Shown piece by piece: positions 19,303 to 26,637 of a stretch of 34,736 bases of DNA (the stretch's first letter is position 1; each line of letters starts with the position of its first letter). The DNA comes from an uncultured Alphaproteobacteria bacterium. Lineage in GTDB: Bacteria; Pseudomonadota; Alphaproteobacteria; Rhodobacterales; Rhodobacteraceae. A program made the translations under genes and the position numbers. Location of the stretch: contig CACBBC010000017.1 of assembly GCA_902537415.1 (NCBI GenBank), positions 1-34,736 on the forward strand, in the 5' to 3' direction. Under the pieces are notes generated by a model that made no database searches, was not told the origin of the DNA, and saw only the letters and a program-made list of their open reading frames with translations.

Positions 19303-20076
19303 CTAAACAAAATCTGTAACAATAAAATCGTCAGCATCGATCAATCCAACATCCGTATTATCAATAAGGAATAGAATTTTATTGCTACTTGTATCTTTTA
19401 TTTGAACATCGCCCGAATGAGTTCCACTGGTCACTTGCGAAATTGTTAAGTCAGCGAAAGTTTTATCTTCAAGCCCAATTTTATCAGTACCGTTGGTGAA
19501 GTCAGTAATTATATCCGCAACATTTATATCTGTGCTCGCATCGGAAACGCTGCAGACAAATATATCGGCACCGCCTTCACCAGTTAGCGTATCCTTTACG
19601 CCAGCACCTGACCCTCCGTATAGCGTGTTATTCGCGCTGTTTCCTTTAATTGTATCTGAAGCAGACCCACCTTTAGCATTTTCGATTATCACATCATAGG
19701 CGATACCCATGAGACCATCCCCAGCTCCAAGATCTAAGCCCAAATCACTATCACTGTGAGATGTAATATTTCCAAAAAACGAATAGCTACCTGCGGTAAG
19801 GTCAATATTCGCAACACTATTCTGGTCATACCATGAAAAAGTATCATTCCCACCAGCATCCCAAATAGATGCATTTATGAAATTGTCATTAGAGAATGAA
19901 GATAGTTTATATTCTGTATTTCCAGCGTTATAGGACATATATCCTGGTATGATTGCACAAGTTGATATAATTAGAGGAAACAGAACTATTCTGGAATATT
20001 TTTGGCAACCAGTTGCAAAAATTAAAGATACAGCCTTTAAGGAATAGGTAAAAGTTTTGTCAATTGCTGCAGGCAA
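19303..20076 (-). CDS. Serralysin-like RTX C-terminal fragment without protease domain
   Basis: The region from about residue 53 matches the calcium-binding C-terminal part of serralysin proteases: IWDAGGNDTFSW, VIIENAKGGSASDTIKGNSANNTLYGG, then a terminal TLTGEGGADIF and DIITDFTNGTDKIGLED. Only one or two degenerate glycine/aspartate nonapeptide repeats remain. The zinc site HEIGHALGL and the catalytic domain that should precede are missing. The first 46 residues look unrelated to the family. The frame opens at TTG (20076); the ATG at 19938 (211 residues) is an alternative, consistent with a TTGACA on the minus strand at 20063. It is probably a decayed or truncated exoprotease gene. No type I secretion genes are near. 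Confidence 0.6.
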   Translation of the reverse strand: MPAAIDKTFTYSLKAVSLIFATGCQKYSRIVLFPLIISTCAIIPGYMSYNAGNTEYKLSSFSNDNFINASIWDAGGNDTFSWYDQNSVANIDLTAGSYSFFGNITSHSDSDLGLDLGAGDGLMGIAYDVIIENAKGGSASDTIKGNSANNTLYGGSGAGVKDTLTGEGGADIFVCSVSDASTDINVADIITDFTNGTDKIGLEDKTFADLTISQVTSGTHSGDVQIKDTSSNKILFLIDNTDVGLIDADDFIVTDFV

Positions 20077-20135
20077 TAACTTTTATCTTTAAATATCGAA
20101 GGCACAAAAAAAGCTCAATTAAGTTAATAAAATTC

Positions 20136-20798
20136 ATGCAAAAAAATCTATTTGAACAAAGCACTCTGAGAATGAGCGTTCTTTTTTTTCTCTATTTTTT
20201 TTGTGCGACACCTAGTATATCACAACCCCATTTCCAATTTTTTCTAGGGAATAATAAACCAATAAGTCAGATAGGGTTTGTATATGGTGAGAAATTAGGA
20301 ATTAATCCAAATAATGGTAACAACGGAAATGGTAACAACGGTTCGAGGGATCCGTATATCGTGAATCATGACATCCAACTTGGTATGCAAGCTTTTAAAA
20401 ACTTCAAGGTTAATAGGATTAATTTCAACTATGGAGCCACGGTAGCTATAGGCTCCTCGAGTATTTTTTTTAAAGATGGGATCGGGATATTTGTAGAACC
20501 AATCTCAGTTGATTCATTAAACTTAGAATTTGAGCCTGAGGTTACTTTAGATTATTCCGTATTAGATAATATTATTTTTTTCGGAGGGATCTCACAATCA
20601 CTCGTTTGGACAAATGATAACTTCGAACTTGGAAGTTGGAAAATTAAAGAGAAGCTGAATTTTAAGGAAATATACCATAATGCAGGTATAAAGTATGAAG
20701 CTGTAAAAAATAGATTTCTGATTGAGGCAAAGCTCTATAGGAATAACGATAGTGAGTTTTTTTCACTCAGGTTATTAGTTCCGGTTCAAGGCAAGTGA
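20136..20798 (+). CDS. Hypothetical secreted protein, possible beta-barrel
   Basis: I do not recognise this 220-residue protein. It has a signal-peptide-like N-terminus: a polar start, a hydrophobic run (about residues 13-24: MSVLFFLYFFCA), and a likely cleavage around SIS-Q. The ATG at 20172 (residue 13) is an equally good start. Residues 59-70 are an Asn/Gly low-complexity stretch encoded by a tandem DNA repeat. The rest alternates aromatic and polar residues (FGGISQSLVWTND, FLIEAKLYRNND), as in outer-membrane barrels or periplasmic beta proteins. It is divergent from the RTX fragment and convergent with the AEC gene. Function unknown. Confidence 0.6.
   Translation: MQKNLFEQSTLRMSVLFFLYFFCATPSISQPHFQFFLGNNKPISQIGFVYGEKLGINPNNGNNGNGNNGSRDPYIVNHDIQLGMQAFKNFKVNRINFNYGATVAIGSSSIFFKDGIGIFVEPISVDSLNLEFEPEVTLDYSVLDNIIFFGGISQSLVWTNDNFELGSWKIKEKLNFKEIYHNAGIKYEAVKNRFLIEAKLYRNNDSEFFSLRLLVPVQGK
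20313..20341 (+). repeat. Two-copy 15-base direct repeat encoding Asn/Gly
   Basis: AATGGTAACAACGG occurs at 20313-20326 and again at 20328-20341, giving a 15-base period (five codons) inside the hypothetical secreted protein gene. The period keeps the reading frame, so copy-number changes would lengthen or shorten the Asn/Gly linker without breaking the protein. Confidence 0.8.
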
Positions 20799-20856: not shown

Positions 20857-21783
20857 TTATAAAACGTAAAGCAATACAATGGTGACAGTAATACTTGAAA
20901 CTATTGTAGTAATAGTTATTGCAGCAGCACTTTCACTCTCAAATGTTTTGTAATAATTTGCTAGAACGAAAACATTGGCGGCTACCGGTAAGCTCGCACA
21001 AACAATTGCTGTTTTAACCCACATAGGATCCATACCACTTTGAAATTGAAAAATAATAAATATCAATATCGGATGCACAACCAGTTTTATTAAAGTTATA
21101 AGAAACAAAACACTCTTTTGATTTTTGATAGACGTAACATTTAATGAGATGCCAAGTGCGATCAAAGCAACAGCAGTGGCCGATGCAGCAATAATCGAAA
21201 GTGTTCTGTCAATCGCCGTTACTATCTTGATGTCTGCAATTGAAAAAATAAAGGCTACAAAAACAGACATCATAAGCGGGTTATAAACAAAGCGCTTAAC
21301 TACTTCTTTTCCCAGCTCTTTCAGGCTTGCTTTTCTATTCTCTGTTAATTTATAAAATATTAGGGTAGTTAATAACACAAAAGTATCGGCCAAAAGGATC
21401 AAAGCTAATGGGATAGCCGCCTCCGTGCCGAACGCTAAAATGCATAAGGGGACACCTATATATCCATAATTTGGGTAGGCGGCATTCAAGCCGAAGATTG
21501 CTTTCTCCATGGTCTTGAGCTTTGTCATAAGCCCTAAAATATAGGTAAGGCCAAAGATAGATATTGTTACAATCTCATAACTAAAAATGAACTTTAAATT
21601 TAAGCTTTTACTGGCATCGCCCGAAAGAATGCTTGTGAACATAAGTGGGGGTAGCAAAATATAAAAAGCAAACTTTGATAAAACGGTGCCATCCCGTTCT
21701 GACATAAACTTTATTCTTTTCAATAGATAACCAATTCCAATTAATGAAAACATCGGAATAGTCAAATTTAAGACATCAGTCAT
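20857..21783 (-). CDS. AEC-family transporter
   Basis: The AEC family (auxin efflux carrier, including malate and malonate permeases of bacteria) moves small organic anions across the inner membrane. The 308 residues contain about ten hydrophobic helices in two halves. The N-terminal IPMFSLIGIGYLLKRIKFMSE and the sequence GLNAAYPNYGYIGVPL near residue 100, including the conserved N-x-G-x-x-G-x-P-L pattern, are typical. The C-terminal half has CASLPVAANVFVLA. The ATG overlaps the stop of the small membrane gene (TAATG), and this is the last gene of the BLUF operon. The substrate cannot be read from the sequence. Confidence 0.88.
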   Translation of the reverse strand: MTDVLNLTIPMFSLIGIGYLLKRIKFMSERDGTVLSKFAFYILLPPLMFTSILSGDASKSLNLKFIFSYEIVTISIFGLTYILGLMTKLKTMEKAIFGLNAAYPNYGYIGVPLCILAFGTEAAIPLALILLADTFVLLTTLIFYKLTENRKASLKELGKEVVKRFVYNPLMMSVFVAFIFSIADIKIVTAIDRTLSIIAASATAVALIALGISLNVTSIKNQKSVLFLITLIKLVVHPILIFIIFQFQSGMDPMWVKTAIVCASLPVAANVFVLANYYKTFESESAAAITITTIVSSITVTIVLLYVL

Positions 21784-22049
21784 TAATCACCCGATTTGAA
21801 AGGGACTGTAAGTTTTTGCATTATCAAAACAGCCATTAAGAATAATACTAATATGAATAAACTAGTTTTAAGTATTTCAAAAAAATACACTTGTATACAG
21901 TTTAAAACAGAAACCGAAAAGCGATTGATACTATAGCACCTATTTATCAGGTCATAGAATTCAAGCAAAAATACTATCAAAAAAATACAGCTTAGAACAA
22001 AACAGATAAAAGCAATAAAATACTTTAAGTAACTCATATACTTAGACAT
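21783..22049 (-). CDS. Small two-helix membrane protein in the BLUF operon
   Basis: The 88-residue product is not recognised. It contains two long hydrophobic segments, about residues 9-29 (YFIAFICFVLSCIFLIVFLLE) and 60-80, joined by a polar loop with two cysteines (RCYSINRFSVSVLNC). The C-terminus is short and polar. It starts three bases after the BLUF gene and its stop overlaps the start of the AEC permease gene. The coupling on both sides argues for a real gene acting with its neighbours, perhaps as a membrane partner of the permease or of the photoreceptor. That role is inference. Confidence 0.65.
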   Translation of the reverse strand: MSKYMSYLKYFIAFICFVLSCIFLIVFLLEFYDLINRCYSINRFSVSVLNCIQVYFFEILKTSLFILVLFLMAVLIMQKLTVPFKSGD

Positions 22050-22052
22050 TGT

Positions 22053-22463
22053 CTAAAAGTTAAAAATTGTCGCTTCTCTAGAAAGTTTAACAAAAACTTC
22101 TTCGACCTCAGCTTTAGACAAGCTTTTAACAATTCCGTTTGAAACCTCCTCCCGGCTCCACATCCATGTTTTAACGGGGTCGTCTTTCATCGCCCATGCA
22201 GGAAATAAACGCTTTTCACAAAACTGATCGAGTAGGTGATAGACGTTAATGTGACGGTCATCCTTCTGTATCTTCTCATAGATATTTTTTACCTGCTGTT
22301 CAGATCCTTCAAGGAGCTGCAGAAAAATATCGGAACGACAGATTAAAGCTCCAGTGATGTCGTGTTTCCTATTGTTTGCTCTAGAAGCAATTAATATTGC
22401 GGATAGAATCTCTAAACTATATCCAAACGGTTGAGAACAATAAACGAGCTGCATGAATTTCAT
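22053..22463 (-). CDS. Stand-alone BLUF-domain blue-light photoreceptor
   Basis: BLUF domains bind FAD and respond to blue light through a rearranged hydrogen-bond network. The 136 residues are a BLUF domain plus a short C-terminal cap. Key positions are all present: Y8 and Q49 for the photoreaction, N30/N31 in SRANN for flavin binding, ITGALI, FLQLLEG, and RLFPAWAM with W90 and M92. The arrangement closely follows the short PixD-type proteins. No output domain such as EAL is attached, so the signal must pass by protein contact. Its ATG overlaps the stop of the DUF218 gene (TAATG), and the small membrane gene follows after three bases. Confidence 0.92.
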   Translation of the reverse strand: MKFMQLVYCSQPFGYSLEILSAILIASRANNRKHDITGALICRSDIFLQLLEGSEQQVKNIYEKIQKDDRHINVYHLLDQFCEKRLFPAWAMKDDPVKTWMWSREEVSNGIVKSLSKAEVEEVFVKLSREATIFNF

Positions 22464-23236
22464 TAAAGTTTCCTTGTCAACTTATAAACCCAGTATCCCA
22501 CGGTTTCGTGTATATATATACGCCAAAGATTAATACTACCTTGCATACGTCCTGGACTCCAGTATATCGAGTTTGCCGTTTGAAAATCAACTGGTATCGG
22601 CTCGAAGACTATATCGGGGTGCTGTTTTTTAAAAGTTGCGATAGCTCTTTTCATATGGTTGGCTGAGGTCACAATCCCCCACTTTTTTATTTTCAGATCA
22701 TCAATAAACTCTCTTGTGTAAAAGGCATTCTCGTACGTATTTCGAGAGCGTTTCTCAAAGAGCATTTTTTTGGAATCTACTTTTAACGCCTTAATTAGCT
22801 TTTCTGTTATCTCTGCCTCTGATAGCCCTTCATGGTAGAGACTTCCAGAAAAGCCAGTAAAAATAACAGTACCTCGAGGTTGCTGCTGAAGAAACTGTAA
22901 ACCCTTTAAAACTCTTTCCACGTCTTGCTCGAGAGAAATGTCGTTCCGTTCTTTAGCGATTTTTCCAGAGCCCGTGCTACCTCCGAGCACAATTATACCT
23001 TCTAACTCAAGAAAGGTTTCTTCTCTATAAGAAAATTTATCTTCAAGATTTTTTACAAGAAACTCGGGTATGGGTTTATATAGAATAAGGCTCCAAAAGA
23101 GCACAAACGGTAAGGTGCCTCTAAGCTTATTTCTTTTTGCTCTAGCGATGATAAGTAAAAAAAGAAGAAAGGAAATTATTAAAAGATTTAAAGGGTCTAA
23201 AAAAAAATTAAATGTCTTTGACAAAATAAAAAACAA
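22463..23236 (-). CDS. DUF218 / ElyC-YdcF-like membrane protein
   Basis: DUF218 proteins include ElyC, SanA and YdcF, linked to envelope biogenesis; the fold is Rossmann-like. Two hydrophobic segments (LFFILSKTFNFFLDPLNLLIISFLLF and TLPFVLFWSLILY, with PIPEFLVKNLED after) precede the domain, which holds GIIVLGGSTGSGK, VIFTGFSG, SRNTYENAFYTREF and WGIVTSANHMKRAI. I place the start at TTG 23236, four bases after the upstream stop and behind AAAGG, because the protein then begins as ElyC does. An ATG at 23287 is in frame but would overlap the upstream gene by 47 bases. Its stop overlaps the BLUF start. Confidence 0.8.
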   Translation of the reverse strand: MFFILSKTFNFFLDPLNLLIISFLLFLLIIARAKRNKLRGTLPFVLFWSLILYKPIPEFLVKNLEDKFSYREETFLELEGIIVLGGSTGSGKIAKERNDISLEQDVERVLKGLQFLQQQPRGTVIFTGFSGSLYHEGLSEAEITEKLIKALKVDSKKMLFEKRSRNTYENAFYTREFIDDLKIKKWGIVTSANHMKRAIATFKKQHPDIVFEPIPVDFQTANSIYWSPGRMQGSINLWRIYIHETVGYWVYKLTRKL

Positions 23237-23240
23237 GTAA

Positions 23241-24389
23241 TCAGACCTTTCTAAAATATTTATACGAAAGCTTTTCAAAAGCCTCAAAAGCTTTGAGAAG
23301 GGTAGGAGTATAGCAGGGTAGTACTTGTGTCAAGAATACTCCAGCCATATCGCTTTTGGAGTCTACCCAAAAGTATGTATTTAATAAACCAACCCAGCTC
23401 CCACTATCTGCCGAGCGCCCTGTCGTTAGTGGTTGATTATTTAAAAGAAGACCATAGCCCCAAGTCTTTTCTATATTTGGATACATTTCATTTTCATCAA
23501 CGAGGCTTTGATTATAACTTTTTAAAGTAGAAACTCCCATATTCCCAATCTGGTTTCTGAACATTTTCGAGACCGTAGAGCTTGGCACATTAGATTTCAT
23601 ACTTTTCAATAGAAATTGAAGAAACTTTAAGTAGTCACTTAAGGTGGACGTTAATCCTCCTCCACCATAGTGGAAACGGTTTAAGCCAATGGTTATTTTG
23701 CTGCTAATGTCTGAATAAGCACCATCCGATTCCCTAAAATATAGCGGCGCAAGAGTATCTCTATTTGCTTGACTTGGATTAAATGACGTTTTCTCTAAAC
23801 CTAAGGGTTGGCACAGATACTTTTTGAGATTTTCATCCAAACTAACCCCACTTATAGCTTCTATAGCTTTTCCAAGCCAGCCATAGGAGATGCCATATCC
23901 CCAACGGCTTCCAGGCGTAAATACTAATGGCGCTTGTAGAAAGGAATCGTCACCAATCTTCATCGGAGCAATTTTTTTTTTCGACAATAACTCTGAAATG
24001 ATTGGATCGTGATGCTCATACGCATGACCGGATGTAAAGCTTAGCAAATGATGAAAAGAAATAGGCACGTCATTTTTTTTATATTTAATAGTGTCTCCCT
24101 CTTTATAGGCAATTTCCAAATTATCAATTCCGGGGACATACTTTCCAACTCTATCGTGTAGATCAATTACATTATCCTCAAGAACGGCCAAAGTCAGGTA
24201 TGCCGTTATAGGCTTAGTCATCGAAGCCATTCGAAATAATTGATTTCCATCTTGAGATAAATTGGGAAACTCCGGATTTCTGAAAATACCTTCAAGACAT
24301 ATGGAAGTGCTATTTGTTATGCCATAGTCGACAAATGGTGTTTCCAAATTCAAAAAAGTTTTGTTAATTTCTTCCTCGAACTTTTTCAT
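23241..24389 (-). CDS. Serine hydrolase of the beta-lactamase/esterase family
   Basis: This family (Pfam beta-lactamase, including EstB-type esterases and D-aminopeptidases) uses a serine nucleophile. The SxxK motif is S56-M-T-K59 in FRMASMTKPI, the second motif is likely the tyrosine of WGYGISYGWLG near residue 165, and YGGGGLTSTLSDYLKF near 255 fits the HxG-like region. There is no signal peptide, so it is probably cytoplasmic and not a resistance enzyme. The 382-residue length is usual for the esterase branch. It lies four bases after the CitE-like gene in the BLUF operon. Substrate unknown; an ester or thioester would suit the neighbourhood. Confidence 0.85.
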   Translation of the reverse strand: MKKFEEEINKTFLNLETPFVDYGITNSTSICLEGIFRNPEFPNLSQDGNQLFRMASMTKPITAYLTLAVLEDNVIDLHDRVGKYVPGIDNLEIAYKEGDTIKYKKNDVPISFHHLLSFTSGHAYEHHDPIISELLSKKKIAPMKIGDDSFLQAPLVFTPGSRWGYGISYGWLGKAIEAISGVSLDENLKKYLCQPLGLEKTSFNPSQANRDTLAPLYFRESDGAYSDISSKITIGLNRFHYGGGGLTSTLSDYLKFLQFLLKSMKSNVPSSTVSKMFRNQIGNMGVSTLKSYNQSLVDENEMYPNIEKTWGYGLLLNNQPLTTGRSADSGSWVGLLNTYFWVDSKSDMAGVFLTQVLPCYTPTLLKAFEAFEKLSYKYFRKV

Positions 24390-24393
24390 TCTA

Positions 24394-25245
24394 TCAAGAA
24401 GATTTCAATTTATTCGAAATCTCGACTGTTCTTTGCATTTGTCTCAGTACAGGTTTTTCGATTAACTTTCCATCGACCATTACAAGACCTGTATTTGCTT
24501 CTTCAAAAATACTTAGTATACGCTCCGCTTTTTTTACGTCTTCATCATTAGGAGAAAATATATCATTAATTATTGGAACTTGTTTTGGGTTTATTGAGCC
24601 TTTCCCTGTGAAACCCAGGTTGCGCGCCTGTTCGCAGTAGCGTTTAAGGCCCTCATTATCGCTGAGATCTAAATAAGGTCCGTCTATCGCATCAAGACCT
24701 TCTTTTGCAGCGGCATGTACTACTCTTGAACGCGCATACAATAAATCTTCCCAAGTTAGTTTGCAGCGAAGCTCTGCTGCCATATCAATAAGTCCAAAAA
24801 ATAAAGTTTTTATTCTTTTACTTGCGGCTGCAATTTTGAAGACATTTTCTAAACCTTTATTTGTCTCTATAATAGGGTGAAGGTCACAGTCTTTATTTGC
24901 CTCTGATAATAGATCGTCCACTATAATAATTTCTTCAGCATCCATAACTTTGGGGAGCATTAAAGCGGGAGGGGGGCTTTCACTTTTCAAAACAGCCTGT
25001 AAGTCCTCCAAACCAAATTGTGTGCGAATACTATTAATTCTAAGAATACGCTCAACGTTTTCAAATCCCTTATCATCCTTGAAAATATTTAAGGCATGCG
25101 TCCTAGCCTCGGATTTATCATGAGGCGCGATACCATCCTCTAATTCTACACAAACCATGTCAACACCGCATCCCAGAGCTTTCGGAAACATTTCAGGTTT
25201 TAATCCAGGCGTAAAAATAAAACTTCGTCTCGCTCTAATAGTCAA
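24394..25245 (-). CDS. CitE-like lyase of the HpcH/HpaI family
   Basis: The family contains citrate lyase beta subunits, malyl-CoA and citramalyl-CoA lyases and malyl-CoA thioesterases. These TIM-barrel enzymes cleave or hydrolyse CoA-thioester hydroxyacids with a divalent metal. The 283 residues show RRSFIFTPG at the N-terminus, VELEDGIAP at 33-41, RIN at 69-71, LPKV at 97-100, the metal-ligand glutamate in IIETNKG (E127), GLIDMAAEL with D154, and GKGSINPKQVPIIN. CitD and CitF are absent nearby, so it is not part of a citrate lyase complex. It sits two bases after the SnoaL-like gene and four before the hydrolase gene. Confidence 0.88.
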   Translation of the reverse strand: MTIRARRSFIFTPGLKPEMFPKALGCGVDMVCVELEDGIAPHDKSEARTHALNIFKDDKGFENVERILRINSIRTQFGLEDLQAVLKSESPPPALMLPKVMDAEEIIIVDDLLSEANKDCDLHPIIETNKGLENVFKIAAASKRIKTLFFGLIDMAAELRCKLTWEDLLYARSRVVHAAAKEGLDAIDGPYLDLSDNEGLKRYCEQARNLGFTGKGSINPKQVPIINDIFSPNDEDVKKAERILSIFEEANTGLVMVDGKLIEKPVLRQMQRTVEISNKLKSS

Positions 25246-25247
25246 AA

Positions 25248-25742
25248 TTATTCTCCTCTGGTATATAGCCTCTTTAGTTCTGTGTCTGAGTCTAGAGCTC
25301 TATCAGACCATTTTTCGAAGACGCGTTTGATCTTTCCAGCTGGGAGATTTAATTGAGCCATGGGTATCCCACCATTTACTACCTCCCCATAATATTCAAT
25401 TAGATTACCATCAAATTTAAAATAGGCCATACCGGGTACAGCTACTTTTAGGTTTTCAGAACCGATTAGTGTCGAGGTAAAAGAGAACCTATACCTAGCG
25501 TACCCTTTACTATCATTGTTAATAAGATCGTACATTTCCCACGAAAAATTTTTAGCATCTCTGTGAAAGTGGGTTGGAAGCATCATAGCAATATTTCTTC
25601 TTCCCTTAAATTCACCATAAATATAATCGTCATAGACTCCATCAACGGTAAACAAAGAGGCTAGTTTTTCTCCATCGTTATTTTCAACCGCGGTTGTAAA
25701 AGTTTTTACAATGTCACTAAATTCCAAGTTTTGGCCCTCCAT
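25248..25742 (-). CDS. SnoaL/NTF2-like protein
   Basis: The 164-residue product has the start of the SnoaL/NTF2-like cone fold: a helix with FTTAVENNDGEKLASLFTVDGVYDDYIYGEFKGR, then MMLPTHFHRDAKNFSWEMYDL and alternating strands ending in YYGEVVNGG. Such proteins act as isomerases, dehydratases, hydrolases or binding modules; the exact reaction cannot be inferred. The ATG at 25742 is preferred over the TTG at 25757, and neither has a strong ribosome-binding site. It is the first gene of the minus-strand BLUF operon and is divergent from the enoyl-CoA hydratase gene. Confidence 0.75.
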   Translation of the reverse strand: MEGQNLEFSDIVKTFTTAVENNDGEKLASLFTVDGVYDDYIYGEFKGRRNIAMMLPTHFHRDAKNFSWEMYDLINNDSKGYARYRFSFTSTLIGSENLKVAVPGMAYFKFDGNLIEYYGEVVNGGIPMAQLNLPAGKIKRVFEKWSDRALDSDTELKRLYTRGE

Positions 25743-25845
25743 TGCAGATCTTAACAAGGGAAGTCAAATACTTATAGGGAAAAATTATATTTATGTTGTA
25801 TGATTACTAAAGTTCTAATTTTGAATTACTAAAGAGGGGGCAATA

Positions 25846-26637
25846 ATGCAATTCGAGACAATTACTTTTGAGATTAAAGATAGAGTCGGAACACTTACGA
25901 TGAATAGGCCTGATGAAGCGAACGCATTGAACGCTCAGATGGCTAAAGAATTATTTGAGATATCGGTTTTATGCTCGAGAGACAAAAACTTGGGTGCACT
26001 GATTGTTACTGCAAATGGAAAAATGTTCAACGCTGGAGGCGACCTAAAGGAATTTGATAATCCTCCCGGAGGTAGACAGGATGAACATCTAAGTCGTGTG
26101 GCTTCTGATCTTCATAATGCAATTATACGTTTTCAATATATGGATGCACCGGTAATTATGGCTATTAATGGAACTGCTGCAGGCGGGGGCTTTTCTCTCG
26201 CTCTGTCAGGAGACTACATTTTGGCATCGGATAAAGCAAAATTCGTCTCTGCGTATACCGCTTCGGGGTTAACTCCTGATGGATCATCAACGTTTTTTTT
26301 GGCTAAACACGTCGGATTACTAAGAGCCAAAGAGCTTTTTCTAACGAATAGAATGTTGTCTGCAGAGGAAGCCAAGCAATGGGGCTTTGTAACCGAGGTA
26401 GTGGCTTACGATAACTTAACCACAAGGGCAAATGAAATAGCAATTCAACTTGCATCCGGACCGACCAAGGCCTATGGAGGAGTGAAGAAAATGCTTTTAT
26501 CATCCTTTTCATCTCCGATAGAGTCGCAACTTGACAACGAGACGCGACATATTGTTGGCACAATGGACACTCATGACGGTCCCCATGGGCTAAATGCATT
26601 TCTCAACAAGGAAAGGCCGAGGTTTACAGGTAGTTAG
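25846..26637 (+). CDS. Enoyl-CoA hydratase/isomerase family protein
   Basis: Crotonase-fold enzymes act on acyl-CoA thioesters. In the 263 residues the first oxyanion-hole segment is FNAGGDLKEF at 61-70 and the second GTAAGGGFSLAL at 109-120. The downstream acidic position is D145 in GLTPDGSSTFFL, while the first catalytic glutamate position is not acidic. That arrangement recalls PaaG-type isomerases more than classic hydratases. GAGGGGG upstream of the ATG at 25846 is a very strong ribosome-binding site. The gene is divergent from the SnoaL-CitE operon across a spacer of about 100 bases, and the two probably share regulation and pathway (inference). Confidence 0.9.
   Translation: MQFETITFEIKDRVGTLTMNRPDEANALNAQMAKELFEISVLCSRDKNLGALIVTANGKMFNAGGDLKEFDNPPGGRQDEHLSRVASDLHNAIIRFQYMDAPVIMAINGTAAGGGFSLALSGDYILASDKAKFVSAYTASGLTPDGSSTFFLAKHVGLLRAKELFLTNRMLSAEEAKQWGFVTEVVAYDNLTTRANEIAIQLASGPTKAYGGVKKMLLSSFSSPIESQLDNETRHIVGTMDTHDGPHGLNAFLNKERPRFTGS

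Follow-up and report, generated by a model that had tools for sequence, protein, structure and literature searches.

The cyanobacterial BLUF protein PixD has PixE as its partner. In Acinetobacter, blue light leads BlsA to bind the repressor AcoN, and the acetoin catabolism genes are derepressed (excerpt of PMC6595428), while in Rhodobacter sphaeroides the alphaproteobacterial BLUF sensor AppA acts through the repressor PpsR (excerpt of PMC10890935). An excerpt on the marine roseobacter HIMB11 (PMC4148974) also names BLUF genes as candidate sensors of light for phototrophy. Here we describe a BLUF gene that is one of seven tightly packed genes on contig C17, a 34.7-kb stretch with a G+C content of 38% that was analysed whole and is called the window below. 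The contig belongs to a 1.61-Mb assembly of 57 contigs, 65% complete and with no 16S rRNA gene found in it, from a small-genome, Rhodobacteraceae-like and probably marine bacterium. We lean, if only slightly, towards reading the locus as a lineage-specific metabolic operon of seven cistrons, confined to a single genus and carrying a short BLUF receptor that acts in trans. No such operon was found in the open-licence literature on BLUF in Rhodobacteraceae, marine bacteria and operons, on gene context, or on single-cell and surface-ocean topics, as far as titles and the starts of abstracts go (including PMC12661815, on Roseobacter metagenome-assembled and single-amplified genomes). Nor was an open-licence paper joining "BLUF domain" and "auxin efflux carrier" found. 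In the portions available, "Plant Flavoprotein Photoreceptors" mentions BLUF and the auxin efflux carrier; HpcH and citramalyl-CoA occur together in work on an M. tuberculosis itaconate and leucine enzyme.

The seven genes follow one another on the minus strand in the order SnoaL-like, CitE/RipC-like lyase, serine hydrolase, DUF218, BLUF, TM2 and AEC permease, with an enoyl-CoA hydratase/isomerase gene diverging from the first:

25248 to 25727, minus strand: SnoaL-like protein, first gene (Pfam SnoaL_2, 38 bits; start most likely, by alignment of 12 loci)
24394 to 25245, minus strand: CitE-like protein of the HpcH/HpaI family, probably a CoA-ester lyase (Pfam HpcH_HpaI, 119 bits)
23241 to 24389, minus strand: serine hydrolase with a class-C beta-lactamase/esterase fold (Pfam Beta-lactamase, 129 bits)
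22463 to 23236, minus strand: DUF218 protein (Pfam, 92 bits; likely start TTG at 23236)
22053 to 22463, minus strand: short single-domain BLUF photoreceptor, 136 amino acids (Pfam BLUF, 93 bits)
21783 to 22049, minus strand: TM2, a two-helix membrane protein of 88 amino acids (alignment and AlphaFold model)
20857 to 21783, minus strand: AEC-family permease, last gene (Pfam Mem_trans, 96.5 bits)
25728 to 25845, no strand: intergenic region from which the SnoaL-like and hydratase genes diverge (good conservation in 11 of the 12 loci aligned)
25846 to 26637, plus strand: divergent enoyl-CoA hydratase/isomerase family gene, outside the operon (Pfam ECH_1, 171 bits)

The layout given in an earlier note on this DNA, seven closely spaced minus-strand genes and a divergent enoyl-CoA hydratase gene, is present, and Pfam places six of the seven proteins above its curated cut-offs, all but the 88-residue TM2. 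With corrected starts, 2 bp separate SnoaL from CitE, 4 bp CitE from the hydrolase and 4 bp the hydrolase from DUF218; BLUF and TM2 are 3 bp apart, while DUF218 and BLUF, like TM2 and AEC, overlap by one base in a TAATG. All six codirectional pairs inside the operon lie at most 5 bp apart or overlap, against 4 of 20 elsewhere in the window (Fisher P = 0.0009, a rough figure as some starts outside the operon are mechanical open reading frame calls). The packing of the operon is thus, by this rough figure, above the local background. Several of the seven genes look translationally coupled, and one mRNA probably runs from the conserved divergent intergenic region through all of them.

Two of the earlier gene starts were moved, the gene set itself being kept. 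The mechanical DUF218 reading frame overlaps the hydrolase gene by 47 bp. Because a stop lies some four codons before the position of TTG 23236 in nine of the 13 relatives, and the most divergent relative (L014) has a methionine there, we set the likely start at this TTG, which is itself visible in L009-L013; the long DUF218 spacings in those five loci are an artefact of alignment beyond the true start. For SnoaL, TTG 25727 is preceded by GGAGG and L014 has an ATG at the same place. The start given earlier, ATG 25742, is GTG in three and TTG in three of 11 aligned relatives and is missing in L014, and the alignment makes TTG 25727 the most likely start, with ATG 25742 as the alternative.

The stretch 25728-25845 is likely the promoter region of both the SnoaL-like gene and the hydratase gene. 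No consensus sigma-70 match lies inside it, and scans for promoters and terminators did not rise above chance. TGTN12ACA, which we take to be the PpsR-type site, occurs 13 times in the whole window (7.7 expected) and is absent from this region. Membership of a PpsR-controlled light regulon was considered and set aside on that ground.

The BLUF match (PF04940, 93 bits) covers residues 4-93, most of the 136-residue protein. Y8, N31, Q49, W90 and M92 are invariant across 31 chosen BLUF relatives; following the literature on AppA and PixD, we take these to be the flavin-pocket residues. The predicted structure (mean predicted local distance difference test score, pLDDT, 83) is closest to single-domain PixD and then to AppA (E about 1e-10), with BlsA also matched; a search by sequence alone puts the BLUF domain of the photoactivated adenylyl cyclase 5mbh first among solved structures. 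The reading frame is open in all 14 genus genomes that hold the operon-type gene. With its conserved residues and PixD-like fold, the protein looks photoactive. Since it is a single domain without an output domain, it probably acts via light-dependent binding to another protein, in the manner of BlsA, AppA and PixD, and this partner would most likely be a regulator encoded elsewhere. The place of the gene in the operon would tie the amount of receptor to that of the catabolic enzymes.

The lyase, the hydrolase and the permease reach no curated NCBIfam cut-off. The closest curated model to the CitE-like protein is RipC_Ccl (258 bits, below the equivalog cut-off of 375); TIGR01588, the citrate lyase beta subunit CitE, gives 176 bits where 443 are required. 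The closest solved structure is PDB 3qll (E 2e-50), presumably RipC. Because 3qll and RipC_Ccl are nearest and yet the score is 258 of 375 bits, the protein probably acts as a RipC/CLYBL-type CoA-ester lyase and was not filed as RipC. For the serine hydrolase the closest model is AcmB, methyl acetate hydrolase (NF052559, 216 bits, cut-off 550), and its PDB matches are esterases and transesterases. The permease belongs to the AEC family (Mem_trans, 96.5 bits against a cut-off of 25.7), falls short of the subfamily TIGR00946 (88 of 246 bits) and matched no solved structure by sequence. Similarly, the hydratase reached no NCBIfam cut-off among the matches listed (the best 25 of 73). The earlier name "ElyC-like DUF218" holds for DUF218; ElyC is a weak fit (NF007794, 71 bits, cut-off 205). 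Together, the AEC permease, the CitE/RipC-like lyase, the esterase-type hydrolase and the SnoaL-like protein may form an uptake-and-cleavage module whose substrate would be an organic acid.

To see how far this arrangement is conserved, we surveyed the genus in 22 genomes. Eleven carry the seven genes as one contiguous set (our own, G003, G005, G007, G008, G010, G012, G014, G018, G019 and G021), although DUF218 is a remnant in G008. Contig ends cut the locus in five more, leaving cut sets in G004, G006 and G013 and a fragment in G002 and G011. The operon-type BLUF gene, a close AEC ortholog (at least 69% identity) and the divergent hydratase gene are each encoded in 14 genomes and CitE in 15, with a partial CitE in G011 and, where the contig of G002 ends, AEC plus a piece of TM2. 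Thirteen of the 14 loci keep a long open DUF218 frame that runs up to BLUF; L008, the other, has the broken remnant. None of operon-type BLUF, CitE, close AEC or the hydratase flank was found in G001, G009, G015, G016, G017 and G020. G016 has the ABC-F-like flank, matched up to residue 495 of 610, where its contig probably ends, and the BLUF gene of G017 (L019, 50%) is of a different type. The set is therefore not confined to one genome, as the earlier note had allowed it might be, and no genome among the 22 that reaches the locus was seen without it.

Selection differs among the genes. Median pairwise ratios of nonsynonymous to synonymous substitution (dN/dS) in the genus rise from ABC-F-like (0.043), CitE (0.045), EamA (0.051), MFS (0.051) and BLUF (0.055) through the hydratase (0.069), AEC (0.077), SnoaL (0.083) and the hydrolase (0.154) to DUF218 (0.304) and TM2 (0.478). 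Rows with stops inside the aligned stretch or below 80% coverage were excluded, leaving 11 for TM2, eight for DUF218, six for MFS and 11-14 of 14 for the others; most of the DUF218 exclusions come from alignment past the true start. Pairs with dS outside 0.02-2.5 were also excluded, and 73 of 91 were used for BLUF. As BLUF is constrained like the flanking genes and TM2 and DUF218 are not, these ratios suggest a working receptor and argue that TM2 and DUF218 are not tightly fitted partners. Divergence in TM2, DUF218 and the hydrolase (21783-22049 and 22463-24389) far outpaces that of the genes lying between and beside them. The dS of the hydrolase gene (1.05) exceeds all others, perhaps a trace of allele exchange.

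Several results weigh against the reading we prefer. Every scorable adjacency of the whole window is conserved in eight relatives, ribosomal-protein and other unrelated genes included, in a comparison blind to genes that the window lacks. Gene order within the genus is thus background and says little on a bond within the operon. In the 22 window proteins run against Pfam or NCBIfam, the annotated part of the window's open reading frames, there is no transcription regulator. The operon could also hold unrelated genes. To look beyond the genus, we used a family sample of 247 genera. Of its 248 genomes, our own genus included, 85 encode BLUF; the places number 104 in all, and 101 lie in other genera. 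Neither the gene set nor TM2 was found at any of the 60 out-of-genus places compared, up to 6 kb on each side. The same holds for the CitE-like gene, which has matches (E up to 1e-40) in 28 places outside the genus: of the 18 compared, none has BLUF, AEC, SnoaL, DUF218 or TM2 in the compared stretch. Close BLUF genes occur in 6 of 385 genomes sampled across the class (E up to 1e-20) and in 11 of 398 sampled across the phylum (E up to 1e-15), our own counted in both, and the 11 loci outside the genus have no homolog of the other window queries (E 1e-3) within 1.5 kb on each side. Among plasmid records, we found three with BLUF, 29 with CitE (15 listed), five with AEC and 45 with the hydrolase (15 listed), and no BLUF record recurs for CitE, AEC or the hydrolase among the matches listed. 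The co-occurrence that the earlier note proposed to look for across genomes thus holds within the genus and was not found beyond it in the sampled family, class and phylum loci.

What surrounds the BLUF relatives instead is mixed. AEC homologs lie near family BLUF genes in L099 (30% identity, 1.6 kb away, other strand) and L116 (25%, 4.7 kb), and hydrolase homologs (26-27%) in L131 (0.2 kb) and L101 (2.5 kb); there are also generic matches to ABC ATPases and a single one to MFS. Fifteen of the 60 loci hold full-length relatives (39-50% identity, at least 112 bits) and share no context with the operon. Neighbours are common to the pairs L100/L112, L110/L118 and L019/L035, none of them common with the operon; in seven of 18 loci the simple gene caller took an antisense frame over BLUF and these neighbour lists are rough. 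Pfam matched 17 of 20 neighbours from ten loci (eight of the 15 plus L015 and L035), all to unrelated families. Those beside BLUF relatives include DctPQM, RACo, Phe-tRNA synthetase, COQ9, LysE, EamA, class II aldolase and 2OG-Fe(II) oxygenase. In L124 (5995-10290; G111, another genus) a full-length relative (48%) lies upstream of a TRAP-type DctPQM set with one unknown open reading frame between.

The CitE loci include 11 orthologs (57-66% identity) from 11 other genera. In L144 the gene has a hydrolase homolog (26% identity) at a distance of about 1.8 kb, and hydratase homologs are near CitE in L138, L147 and L150. In four other genera (L136, L141, L142 and L144) the CitE ortholog is near an SBP56-type gene, and in three of these also near a 2Fe-2S ferredoxin gene, both assigned by Pfam on the L141 copies only. 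We take SBP56 to be the methanethiol oxidase family, and a further neighbour in three CitE loci is presumably a CoA-binding protein. This neighbourhood is a possible clue to the pathway of the lyase.

These neighbourhoods are what would be seen if a compact genome had packed unrelated genes into one transcript and BLUF acted in trans on targets unrelated to its neighbours, an explanation we hold as a tentative one. In other genera BLUF relatives sit beside TRAP transporter, Phe-tRNA synthetase, COQ9, LysE and 2OG-Fe(II) oxygenase genes and the CitE orthologs of 11 genera lie elsewhere; within the genus DUF218 is broken in one species while the rest of the operon is kept, and TM2 and DUF218 evolve fast where BLUF evolves slowly. 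Set against this are a spacing tighter than the local background and, more weakly given the collinearity, the lack of a genus genome that reaches the locus without the set. Under the lineage-specific metabolic operon that we prefer, mixed neighbours elsewhere are also as expected because the protein acts in trans.

Of the joint function proposed earlier, the operon-like unit, a BLUF protein with its working residues, the AEC-family permease and a lyase of the RipC/CLYBL kind stand; a BLUF-centred or light-tuned unit is not supported. The combination was not found outside the genus in our samples, BLUF relatives there lie beside unrelated genes, the upstream region has no TGTN12ACA site, and the proposed membrane partner, TM2, shows the weakest constraint of the set; the order within the genus is uninformative. 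Light tuning of this particular pathway, with the operon's module as the BLUF target, seems to us possible and yet clearly the lesser chance.

A more direct form of light control would have BLUF bind TM2 and thereby open or close the AEC permease in blue light. TM2 has no match in Pfam or NCBIfam, and its AlphaFold model has two helices, residues 2-42 and 48-81 (mean pLDDT 73.6). In the 12 of 14 loci aligned (L008 and L013 left out), C38, R43-V46 and C51 of the stretch C38-x4-RFSV-x4-C51 are invariant even in a 26%-identical ortholog. The gene order is also suggestive: BLUF and TM2 are 3 bp apart in 13 of 14 loci, and TM2 overlaps AEC by one base in 11 of 13 (8 bp in L008, 17 bp in L014; L013 is cut). 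Yet TM2 is the least constrained of the proteins (dN/dS 0.48), it is at none of the 60 family BLUF loci, and the AEC homolog of L099 (30%), 1.6 kb from BLUF, is on the other strand. We consider such gating improbable, and it is very doubtful that blue light directly sets organic-acid uptake from BLUF through the Cys/RFSV TM2 to the AEC permease of the same message without a transcription factor. That the BLUF gene is a decaying, functionless remnant is hardly credible: no evidence in favour was found, and the idea is contradicted by its dN/dS of 0.055, the invariant photoactive residues and a frame open in 14 of 14 genomes.

Two further features of these genomes concern BLUF and light. The genus encodes a second BLUF paralog of about 144-148 amino acids, 30-37% identical, at 14 of 15 places (L018, L020, L023, L024, L026, L031, L034, L037 and L039-L044). 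It is divergent from a gene we take to be thiolase-like in most loci (ten long matches, two short, two none), with an aminopeptidase-like gene beside it in 13 of 14. Rhodopsin (PF01036) was matched in none of the 22 genus genomes, though the control genomes gave no match either, so that this does not demonstrate its absence. At the other end of the operon, the stretch from the ABC-F-like gene to AEC (19303-20798) is the only one in the window with variable gene order, its RTX/M10_C pieces differing in length or absent in relatives. The ABC-F-like gene is itself broken in G013 (L009; G013:C39:8887-10715) into two overlapping pieces, one with four stops inside.

If light does control the operon, the locus would show small-genome surface-water bacteria matching carbon uptake to the daily light cycle via one small receptor. 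Even without such control, a BLUF receptor fixed in one operon with clonable, assayable enzymes and a permease offers a clean test case.

Each of the closest described systems shares some features with the operon. RipC/Ccl, the citramalyl-CoA lyase of itaconate breakdown, is the closest curated model to the lyase (258 versus 375 bits), whereas this operon has no CoA-transferase gene. AppA extends past its BLUF domain (406-residue construct 4hh0) while the operon protein ends at 136 residues, and the AppA/PpsR system differs further in that 25728-25845 carries no TGTN12ACA. Cyanobacterial PixD (Slr1694, Tll0078) is single-domain and gives the best structural matches, but at about 25% identity. 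The AnBLUF46 locus of Acinetobacter nosocomialis likewise has its BLUF gene near catabolic and transport genes; there both flanking genes are oppositely oriented and, in the part of the article available, the authors see no operon (PMC9020721). BlsA of Acinetobacter differs in sequence (25-27% identity in structural alignments) and in its repressor, as no repressor gene was seen at this locus. Like the operon protein, however, it is a single domain of similar length and fold (6w72, 6w6z) with no output domain, and it provides, in the excerpt cited above (PMC6595428), the precedent of a carbon-catabolic operon brought under light control via a repressor.

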